In this document: positions 56,068 through 58,572 of the stretch, one piece after another
Numbering within the stretch: the stretch's first letter is position 1
How the letters are laid out: each line of letters starts with the position of its first letter
Program-made: the position numbers and the translations under genes
DNA from: Gammaproteobacteria bacterium
GTDB taxonomy: Bacteria > Pseudomonadota > Gammaproteobacteria > Steroidobacterales > Steroidobacteraceae
Direction: 5' to 3'
Assembly: GCA_947452065.1 (NCBI GenBank)
Contig: CANGBB010000002.1
Location: 1-64,000, forward strand
Length of the DNA stretch: 64,000 bases
The notes under the pieces: generated by a model
Told to the model about the DNA's origin: nothing
The model's input: the letters and a program-made list of their open reading frames with translations, nothing else
The model's database searches: none

Positions 56068-56727
56068 CTACCTCTGCTCGATACCCTGATCGCTGGCCAC
56101 CAGCAGCACATCCGCTGGTCGTTCCGCGAACAGTCCGACCGTTACGACGCCCGGCCATTGATTGATCCGCAATTCCAGCGACTTCGCATCGGTGATCTGC
56201 AGGTCATGCACGTCAAGGATGTGGTTGCCGTTGTCGGTGGTGGTGCCTTCGCGCCACACCGGTCTCCCGCCGAGTGCGCGCAGTTGACGCGCCACGAGTG
56301 AGCGCGCCATCGGGATCACTTCGACTGGCAGCGGAAAGCGGCCCAGCACCTTCACCAACTTGGAGTCGTCGACGATGCAGATGAAGCGGCTGGCCGCCGC
56401 GGCGACGATCTTCTCGCGGGTCAGAGCCGCACCGCCGCCCTTGATCAGCTCGCGGGCCGGGTTGGCCTCATCGGCCCCGTCGATGTAGAGGTCGAGCCCG
56501 TCCAGGCTGTTGAGATCGTGCAGTGGGATGCCGAGTGCGCGCAGTCGTTCACTGGAGGCTTCTGAACTGGACACGGCCCCCCGCAGGCGAGTGCGCCACG
56601 GCCCGAGTTGCTCGATGAGGGCGTTGACTGTTGATCCGGTGCCGACGCCTAGAATCATGCCGTCACGCACGAATTCCAGTGCCGCGGCGGCGACTCGCTG
56701 TTTCTTTTCTGCGGCGCTCAGTGCCAT
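56068..56727 (-). CDS. rpiA: Ribose-5-phosphate isomerase A
   Basis: RpiA interconverts ribose-5-P and ribulose-5-P, partnering rpe in the pentose phosphate pathway. The 219-residue protein shows [19 protein letters not shown] (substrate loop), [29 protein letters not shown] (split) with the catalytic Asp-Glu pair, and [10 protein letters not shown]. The upstream strong terminator separates it from the 14-codon gene on the same strand. Confidence 0.97.
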
Positions 56728-56738
56728 GTCTACCCCTG

Positions 56739-56770
56739 AAAATGACTGTGCCCGCTTTCGCGGGCACAGT
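56739..56770 (-). terminator. Strong terminator of the 14-codon Lys/Ala gene
   Basis: Read leftwards, ACTGTGCCCGC and GCGGGCACAGT form a perfect 11-bp stem with a GAAA tetraloop and the tail CATTTT. It sits 36 nt downstream of the small gene's stop codon and just before rpiA. Confidence 0.85.
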
Positions 56771-56805
56771 TGATTGGATAAAGCTCCGAATCAGTAAGAG
56801 TGATC

Positions 56806-56850
56806 TTACTTCTTCTTGGCAGCTTTCTTCTTAGCCTTCTTCTTGGCCAT
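56806..56850 (-). CDS. 14-residue Lys/Ala peptide
   Basis: The frame encodes [14 protein letters not shown]: ten of fourteen residues are basic or Ala-spaced lysines. It has a complete expression unit: a sigma-70 promoter upstream, a CGGAGA ribosome binding site 7 nt before the ATG, and a strong terminator after the stop. That makes real expression likely although the product is tiny. I do not recognise a family. The Lys/Ala composition recalls the tails of L17, L23 and RsfS in this window; nucleic-acid binding is an inference. Confidence 0.7.
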   Translation of the reverse strand: MAKKKAKKKAAKKK

Positions 56851-56884
56851 GAGAAATCTCCGTTAAGGGTTAGTCCGGGGTCCG

Positions 56885-56916
56885 AGTATATACATGCAAA
56901 AATAAATTACAAGCAA
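56885..56916 (-). promoter_or_regulatory. Promoter of the 14-codon gene
   Basis: On the minus strand TTGTAA, 16 bp and TATACT; an overlapping pair TTGCTT, 18 bp and TATATA also fits. The surrounding spacer is AT-rich (TTTATTTTTG), unusual for this GC-rich window. The predicted leader is about 28 nt. Confidence 0.6.
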
Positions 56917-56954: not shown

Positions 56955-57419
56955 TCACTCGCGCGAGAGGATGAACCGCCAATGCACATCACTGACGGGC
57001 ATCACTGACAGACGATTGCCTCTCCGCAACAGCTGAAAATCACGGAGTTTCTGCTCTTGATGAGCACGCAACTCCTCCAGTGTGATGACGCGCTTCAATG
57101 CACGAACGAGTTGTACATCGACCATGTACCAGCGCGGATTCTCTGGCGTGCTGCCCGGATCATGATGGTCATGCCCTGGCTCAAAGGCGGTGTGATCCGG
57201 GTAACCGGAGCGCACCACGCGCAGGATGCCGACGATTCCGGGCTCGGCGCAGTTGGAGTGGTAGAGGAAGGCTTCATCGCCCACCTGTATTTCATCGCGC
57301 AACAGGTTGCGTGCCTGATAGTTGCGAACGCCGTCCCAATGAGTGGTTTTTTTCGGTGCGGCGCGCAACTGCTCCAGACCGAAAACGCTGGGTTCGGACT
57401 TCAAAAGCCAGTGTTTCAA
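56955..57419 (-). CDS. EVE domain protein
   Basis: The 154-residue protein is a single EVE domain (PUA-like fold), a family proposed to bind modified bases in RNA or DNA. Signatures are KHWLLKSEPSVFGLEQL, THWDGVRNYQARNLLRDEI and GDEAFLYHSNCAEPGIVG, and the late WYMVDVQLV. It overlaps fau by 4 nt, a common gammaproteobacterial pairing downstream of 6S RNA. Confidence 0.94.
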   Translation of the reverse strand: MKHWLLKSEPSVFGLEQLRAAPKKTTHWDGVRNYQARNLLRDEIQVGDEAFLYHSNCAEPGIVGILRVVRSGYPDHTAFEPGHDHHDPGSTPENPRWYMVDVQLVRALKRVITLEELRAHQEQKLRDFQLLRRGNRLSVMPVSDVHWRFILSRE

Positions 57420-58036
57420 GGGCTCTCCAGAGGATGGCAGTCGATGAGTTCCGCATCCGTGACGATCTGATCGAGCCGGATGTCGTGGGGCGCGGCAACC
57501 AGTGCGGGCATTTCACTGCAGGCGTAAGCCATACCCACCAGCCTCGGCCGACGGTGGACCGGGAGGTGCGGGAGACGCTCGAGGATGCGGTCGTAGTAGC
57601 CGCCGCCGGTGCCCAGACGCATACCGCTGCGATTGAAGGCCAACGTTGGCAGCACGATCACATCCAGGCTCTCAATGGGAATGCGCACTCCCGGTGGCGG
57701 CTCGGGAATGCCGTGTCGGTTGACTCGACGGCGCATGCCGGAGTCGGCGACGAAGTCCATCGTGTGTCGTGGGTAGTTGCGAATGCGCGGCAGGCAGATC
57801 TTCAGGCCGCGGCGACGCGCAATGGTCAGCAATGCTTGTGTGTCGGGTTCGGCGCCGATGGCGATATACAGTGCAATGCGCCGGCGACCGCGCAGTAGTG
57901 GCGATGCCGCGAGGATGAGGGTCATGCGCTCGGATGCGCGTCGACGCTGGCCGGCACTAAGCGCGGCGCGCTGCAGCCGGGCCCGGGCGCGCTGCGCGCG
58001 CCGCTCAAGCTGCCAGGGAAGAAGAGATGGCGTCAC
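57416..58036 (-). CDS. fau: 5-Formyltetrahydrofolate cyclo-ligase (GTG start)
   Basis: The enzyme converts 5-formyl-THF to 5,10-methenyl-THF. Motifs are RRIALYIAIGAEPDTQALL and the substrate site LPTLAFNRSGMRLGTGGGYYDR with IRLDQIVTD after it. GTG 58036 is chosen because the longer in-frame reading would run through the 6S RNA gene; the result is a 206-residue protein of family length. Downstream of 6S RNA, the conserved ssrS-fau arrangement, so it is probably expressed from the 6S transcript. Confidence 0.9.
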   Translation of the reverse strand: MTPSLLPWQLERRAQRARARLQRAALSAGQRRRASERMTLILAASPLLRGRRRIALYIAIGAEPDTQALLTIARRRGLKICLPRIRNYPRHTMDFVADSGMRRRVNRHGIPEPPPGVRIPIESLDVIVLPTLAFNRSGMRLGTGGGYYDRILERLPHLPVHRRPRLVGMAYACSEMPALVAAPHDIRLDQIVTDAELIDCHPLESP

Positions 58037-58219
58037 CCGCCTGTGCCGGTGCGTACCGTTGCTCTCGACCAGAGCAACAGGTGGGACGCCCTGCAGCGGG
58101 TAAGGCTTTCTGCTCGAGGCAGACTTGCACAATTCCGCATGCAAAAGAGCATCCCGTGGGTGTTTCAATTAGGGTCGAGAGGTACCCGATACACGTGTCG
58201 AACACCGCAGGCGACGCCG
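58035..58219 (-). ncRNA. ssrS: 6S RNA
   Basis: The position between zapA and fau is the standard site of ssrS. The closing stem pairs CGCCTGCGGTG at the 5' end (58203-58213) with CACCGGCACAGGCG at the 3' end (58038-58051). Inside are the typical TGTTCG just after the first stem, a long imperfect helix with a large central bubble, and the GCCTTAC segment resembling GCCUUAA of E. coli 6S RNA. Length about 184 nt. It binds sigma-70 RNA polymerase in stationary phase. Ends are estimated. Confidence 0.88.
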
Positions 58220-58239: not shown

Positions 58240-58572
58240 TTATGAGGTCGGACGCTGTCGCAGCACGGATTCGACACGTTGACGCATGGACTTGATGCGT
58301 GCACCGGTTTGCGGACTGCCACCGCGGGCGCGCAGCTGCAACAACTCATGCGCGAGATTCAGCGCCGCCATCACGGCCACCCGCTCGGCACCGCTCACCT
58401 TGCCGCCATCGCGGGTTTCGCGCAGCTTGCTGTTGAGTAGTTCCGCGCTTTGCAGCAGGGAATCTTTCTCATCCGGCGGACAGGCGATGTGGTAATCGCG
58501 ATCAAGGATGCGGACGGCGATGGTCACCGGTTCCTTGGAGGCCTTGGATTCCTTGCCCGTGGCCTCGCTCAT
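58240..58572 (-). CDS. zapA: Cell division protein ZapA
   Basis: ZapA bundles FtsZ filaments. The 110-residue protein has VTIAVRILDRDYHIACPPDEKD (split) at the N-terminus, then the predicted long helix with ERVAVMAALNLAHELLQLRA and a C-terminal coiled coil. An N-terminal 15-residue Ser/Lys/Glu-rich extension is present. Overlaps TIGR02449 by 4 nt and precedes 6S RNA. Confidence 0.94.
   Translation of the reverse strand: MSEATGKESKASKEPVTIAVRILDRDYHIACPPDEKDSLLQSAELLNSKLRETRDGGKVSGAERVAVMAALNLAHELLQLRARGGSPQTGARIKSMRQRVESVLRQRPTS

Follow-up and report, generated by a model that had tools for sequence, protein, structure and literature searches.

Gene order and signals at the locus

The window, a stretch of 64,000 nucleotides from a member of the Steroidobacteraceae, carries on its minus strand a series of genes that begins with zapA (58240-58572) and continues with the 6S RNA gene ssrS (58030-58216; Rfam RF00013, 81.1 bits), fau, encoding 5-formyltetrahydrofolate cyclo-ligase (longest frame 57416-58168), an EVE-domain gene (56955-57419) and rpiA, encoding ribose-5-phosphate isomerase A (56068-56727). 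Since the longest fau frame overlaps the 6S RNA, the real start of fau probably lies further in. The order zapB-zapA-ssrS-fau-EVE, often with rpiA near, has been described in beta- and gammaproteobacteria (PMC7641849) and is the order seen here; the accessible part of that paper names no Lys-rich gene.

Between the EVE-domain gene and rpiA, on the same strand, lies a small unit. It begins with a putative promoter (56885-56913) comprising the -10 element TATACT (56890-56885) and a -35-like element that can be read as TTGTAA (56912-56907) or, with a 17-bp spacer, as CTTGTA (56913-56908); these elements recur in loci of the family that were recovered by BLAST rather than by pattern. The conserved leader motif CCCCGGACTAACC (56868-56880) follows at the mRNA start, and the ribosome-binding site CGGAGA (56857-56862) stands six bases 5' of an ATG at 56850. 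The frame thus opened has 14 codons (56806-56850 with its TAA stop at 56808-56806), and its product consists of nine Lys, four Ala and one Met. An 11-bp hairpin with a GAAA loop (56745-56770), probably the micropeptide gene's own leaky terminator, completes the series, and rpiA starts 17 nt beyond it. In many members of the family an extra hairpin of variable sequence occupies the interval from the stop codon to the conserved hairpin (56771-56806 in the window).

The promoter, leader, CGGAGA site, frame and 11-bp hairpin, in this order, had been reported by a first-pass annotation that took them for a complete transcription unit. The parts are indeed present, but completeness is doubtful given the hairpin tail and the short distance to rpiA: a terminator scan did not call the hairpin, since its tail CATTTTCAG is poor in T, and with the hairpin ending so close to its start rpiA probably lives on read-through. 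The promoter scan gave TTGTAA-16-TATACT with nine of 12 matches, a result that is not significant alone, since two promoters were found in 8 kb where shuffled sequence gave 1.2 on average. The RNA from 56880 to 56735 is predicted to fold at -52 kcal/mol (z = -5.2). Searching for the first nine codons as a degenerate pattern, with up to two mismatches allowed, gives one occurrence in the window and none in 100 shuffles, and ATGGCNAARAARAAR occurs only once across the 2.17-Mb genome.

Two ideas about the leader were set aside. That the motif is a regulon signal was rejected, its core CGGACTAACCC being single-copy in its own genome, and a 3-bp CGG/CCG stem, judged by eye, was dropped because several leaders are unable to form it. 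The similarity of the leader CGGACTAACCCGACA (window 56868-56880) between genera exceeds what a promoter would need.

Conservation and coding selection

Conservation was assessed with a sequence model, R1, of the promoter, leader and first three codons. Of 247 genomes of the order 212 match it, and in the family of the window (f1) a hand count gives 120 of 125. Within the family the matches include loci encoding 16- and 21-residue peptides, with promoter and leader as in the window; the genus mates read have 16 residues. A plain comparison of the 227-bp region gives hits in 30 of 40 relatives, a figure that overcounts the unit, since the matches in at least three genomes (G032, G037 and G039) fall within Lys-rich stretches of longer frames that belong to other genes. 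Two genomes of the order have long frames with extended Lys-rich C-terminal tails (L031:574-1806 and L032:519-1751), whose starts look adenylate-kinase-like by eye.

A DNA pattern blind to the peptide, comprising the -10 region, the leader and GGAG, was also used. It finds at least 119 public loci, at least 118 of which begin a Lys-rich frame, some of them cut at contig ends or masked; one locus, L090, has no such frame. Among the matches listed, every one of the 104 loci with 600 nt of downstream sequence has rpiA as the next gene, and every one of the 96 with 1200 nt upstream has fau, EVE or zapA there, EVE in 76 cases. The apparent invariance of the promoter among these loci is partly a selection effect, since they were recovered by a pattern that contains the promoter. 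Some of the records are metagenome-assembled genomes titled Klebsiella pneumoniae, Candidatus Planktophila lacus, Janthinobacterium lividum or Rhodospirillales/-aceae (L102, L039, L078, L038, L074 and L087); these titles look wrong, and the gene and its neighbourhood are present in each.

The unit can be lost. Of the 35 genomes of the order without an R1 match, five belong to the family: one has the frame at a contig end (G138), one yields the unit at a looser threshold (G162), one has rpiA only, at a contig end (G146), and one has no rpiA match (G103). The fifth (G187) is a true loss, in which EVE and rpiA adjoin and both frame and hairpin are missing. Absence of the frame where the flanking genes stay, the outcome named beforehand as counting against the unit, is thus seen once in the family; there the entire unit is cleanly gone, rather than the frame having decayed. 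Elsewhere, two genomes of genus g52 in family f6 likewise have EVE then rpiA and neither frame nor hairpin, and three genomes of f12 lack the frame between fau and rpiA, with a different small hairpin retained in two. Whole-unit absence between EVE or fau and rpiA can be inspected at loci L263, L265, L266 and L268-L270.

Changes within the frame were counted on trees built from upstream DNA for the 16-, 17- and 21-codon forms (36, 16 and 22 loci, respectively). At codon positions 1, 2 and 3 they number 9, 2 and 45 in the first, 0, 0 and 16 in the second and 7, 7 and 55 in the third. Synonymous changes, taken as the total less the amino-acid changes, make up 45 of 56, 16 of 16 and 59 of 69 (0.80, 1.00 and 0.86), where 0.19-0.20 is expected from the opportunities. 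L090 and the masked loci L091 and L123 were excluded from these counts and from those of micro units and hairpins, and the limit for a micro form was set at 34 residues, beyond which L148, with 61, falls. So large a synonymous share indicates that the micropeptide is under purifying selection.

The suggestion of a conserved micropeptide in the first-pass annotation gains strong support from selection at the codon level and from the occurrence of the unit throughout the family. The other suggestion made there, a small RNA carrying a peptide, is unnecessary, since the changes fall at third codon positions as in coding sequence. A chance frame was also considered and rejected, given the uniqueness of the codon pattern against shuffles, the Lys-rich frames that begin at the pattern loci and the synonymous pattern; conservation and synonymous change together place the unit beyond chance. 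Lys codons in the micro-frames are AAG in 1051 cases and AAA in 213, and the 115 distinct micro-frames are free of runs of seven A. Neither Asp nor Glu appears in the 38 representative peptides of up to 34 residues (two of them cut), read from MA, and the window peptide has the low-complexity Lys/Ala composition, free of acidic residues, of H1-like proteins.

Long H1-like relatives and length variation

In other families of the order a like promoter and leader precede Lys/Ala-rich proteins of 75-209 residues, and over all genomes the long forms span 58-209 residues, with a like promoter and beside fau, EVE or zapA. R1 matches 13 of 370 genomes of the class, eight of them outside the order, and all eight loci have Lys-rich frames, of 58-189 residues where complete. 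A broader model, R2, from which four of 40 long forms without the exact -10 motif were excluded and eight more left unused, matches 48 of 352 class genomes at E ≤ 0.01. This number is an overcount, since it includes L260, which has no Lys-rich frame; as that locus shows, the weaker R2 matches are partly due to chance. Thirty class-level loci were retrieved from the 48 genomes (18 genomes were not retrieved), of which eight were in the model, five had been seen before and 17 were new, and by a script test each of the 30 has exactly one Lys-rich frame. All 25 R2 loci outside the order adjoin fau, EVE or zapA. In a draw from the phylum, whose share from outside the class is not given, R2 matches four of 249 genomes, all within the class; two weak matches from this draw, L260 and L261, lack a Lys-rich frame. 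Among 87 representatives L189 (E = 0.03) is the sole one without a frame.

Profile matches to known families are few. At E ≤ 0.1, of 28 long orthologues three match Pfam HC2, four NF038053 and two NF038052; 25 of the 28 match no Pfam family. A 26-residue micro form matches no profile, three typed forms match none even at E ≤ 10, and the 14-residue peptide is under the 20-residue limit of the tool. In a six-frame search the locus of G025 scores above the Pfam cut-off, over a stretch with two TGA codons, and no HC2 match at E ≤ 0.001 is found in sixteen genomes of the family. Since Lys-rich repeats align too readily to prove descent, homology is argued from promoter, leader and neighbours.

Compared with known systems, the closest likeness is to Hc2 (HctB) of Chlamydia and BpH1 of Bordetella (PF07382, NF038052, NF038053). 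From the accessible parts of the source, these share Lys/Ala-rich repeats and a length variation based on them, and the few profile matches at the present locus are to this group; unlike the 14-residue window peptide, which is too short to score, proteins of the Hc2/BpH1 type have 165-237 residues, BpH1 itself 182-206 (PMC2848022). BpH1 is not essential, as far as the same parts tell (PMC2848022), and the micropeptide gene can likewise be lost. A second likeness is to AlgP and PhaF of Pseudomonas, with their Lys/Ala-rich disordered tails thought to bind DNA. AlgP is found on polyphosphate granules and its Lys/Ala tail is held to bind DNA, according to the part of the account seen (PMC9239181); there the tails of AlgP and PhaF are KPAA repeats, and AlgP adds a predicted helical N-terminal domain, unlike the window peptide. 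Within the literature collection searched there was no description of this gene, none of the peptide strings looked for in papers, and nothing on Steroidobacteraceae with histone or on Steroidobacter with small proteins and lysine.

Length varies between and within families. Of 34 representatives from the family of the window, 33, the window included, are complete and have 14-30 residues, one being cut; the public locus L148, which has a leader of the same type, encodes 61 residues. Family f15 contains both classes, with 23-24 residues in genera g47 and g48 and 86-165 elsewhere, and the remaining families sampled are long wherever complete. The 14 residues of the window, without the repeats and the 165-237-residue length of H1-like proteins, are the shortest among 136 pooled micro units. 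On an RpiA tree, in which 11 of 73 inner branches are starred and the family of the window is scattered, seven changes of length class are needed in all; the starred branches give at least two, in agreement with the presence of both classes in f15. The tree gives no direction. Shortening is the direction that we infer, the long forms then being the older state. What could not be seen from the window, and so escaped the earlier reader, is that a larger H1-like family occupies this locus, with the window peptide at its short extreme.

The hairpin, competing explanations and the proposed role

Of 173 pooled units in which the start of rpiA was placed, 166 have a GCCCG-bearing hairpin ahead of that gene. 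The script-placed rpiA start lies a median of 33.5 nt beyond the end of the hairpin in micro units (n = 128; range 4-238, upper quartile 48) and 68 nt in long ones (n = 41). Many micro units thus leave little room for an rpiA promoter, which suggests read-through. Of the 25 units outside the order, only five have rpiA near. For 17 of the remaining 20 the downstream sequence extends for about 1 kb or more and contains no rpiA match; 16 of these 17 still show a hairpin of at least 7 bp 3' of the frame, mostly with a T-rich tail. Since the hairpin is kept in units without rpiA, it probably belongs to the micropeptide or H1-like gene. On this gene order rpiA appears to be a later neighbour, or a more easily parted one.

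These observations bear on attenuation, by which the frame would be a leader peptide and the progress of the ribosome over its Lys codons would set termination at the hairpin before rpiA. Nine Lys codons of 14, the widespread hairpin, the short distance to rpiA in micro units and the presence of rpiA next downstream in every listed order-level locus with room all speak for it, and the micro forms do resemble leader peptides of amino-acid biosynthesis, being short frames with one codon in abundance and a hairpin behind them. Unlike such leaders, however, the unit has orthologues 58-209 codons long, the tail of its hairpin in the window is T-poor, and the downstream gene is often absent outside the order, where the hairpin persists all the same. 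The gene behind an attenuator would serve the amino acid sensed, and we know of no tie between rpiA and lysine. No mutually exclusive antiterminator was found in 109 leaders: with the 3' arm of the hairpin withheld, the 5' arm pairs with upstream RNA at 0.47 in native sequences against 0.56 in shuffled ones, native being higher in 30. Finally, where the unit was lost in G187 and in the f6 genomes, rpiA stays and the hairpin is gone. Taking long orthologues, the lack of an antiterminator, units without rpiA and the missing lysine connection together, we consider attenuation improbable. A small regulatory RNA in which the frame is incidental would account for the conserved promoter, leader and hairpin and for the stable fold, but hardly for first and second codon positions that are nearly invariant while the third is free, and is very improbable. 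Least credible of all is a decaying remnant of a longer protein, an idea suggested by the long forms of most other families sampled, since purifying selection acts over many genera and promoter, leader and stop are intact.

The remaining alternative concerns what the peptide binds. Short ribosomal peptides such as bTHX are known, and the size and charge of the window peptide, along with 6S RNA and an EVE-domain gene as neighbours, would suit a basic peptide associated with ribosomes or RNA rather than a nucleoid or polyphosphate factor. The long orthologues, where they match any family, match H1-like DNA-binding ones, and we regard this alternative as unlikely, though less so than the three above. 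As judged from sequence, the frame is conserved and selected, has its own predicted promoter and is orthologous by position and leader to H1-like proteins. The unit is therefore quite probably a gene for a free-standing polycationic micropeptide of 14 residues, nine of them Lys, a short form of the H1-like, Lys/Ala-rich and presumably disordered proteins that other Gammaproteobacteria encode at the equivalent position behind zapA, fau and EVE. Binding of nucleic acid, which is predicted, fits both the composition and the long orthologues.

The gene may work as follows. The peptide would be translated from its own promoter and, by charge, could bind DNA, RNA or polyphosphate, acting as a small nucleoid or polyanion-neutralising factor. 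The hairpin would be the gene's own terminator, turned leaky in the family of the window, so that one transcript would yield much peptide and less RpiA. A peptide of 14 residues may be too short to act as the long H1-like proteins do. That an H1-like family has shortened more than once to working free peptides of 14-30 residues, and that H1-like function accordingly needs almost no length, we hold to be an evenly balanced proposition.

Gene callers commonly set their cut-off above frames of this size, and most annotations therefore probably lack the gene. At this locus a single gene occurs in a natural series of lengths, 14 to 209 residues, behind a like promoter and among common neighbours, and its shortest forms are conserved at the codon level; the minimum length of an H1-like polycation is thereby directly testable. 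If the proposed role is correct, the window peptide would be among the smallest genome-encoded proteins that bind the nucleoid or polyanions, kept across nearly the whole family.
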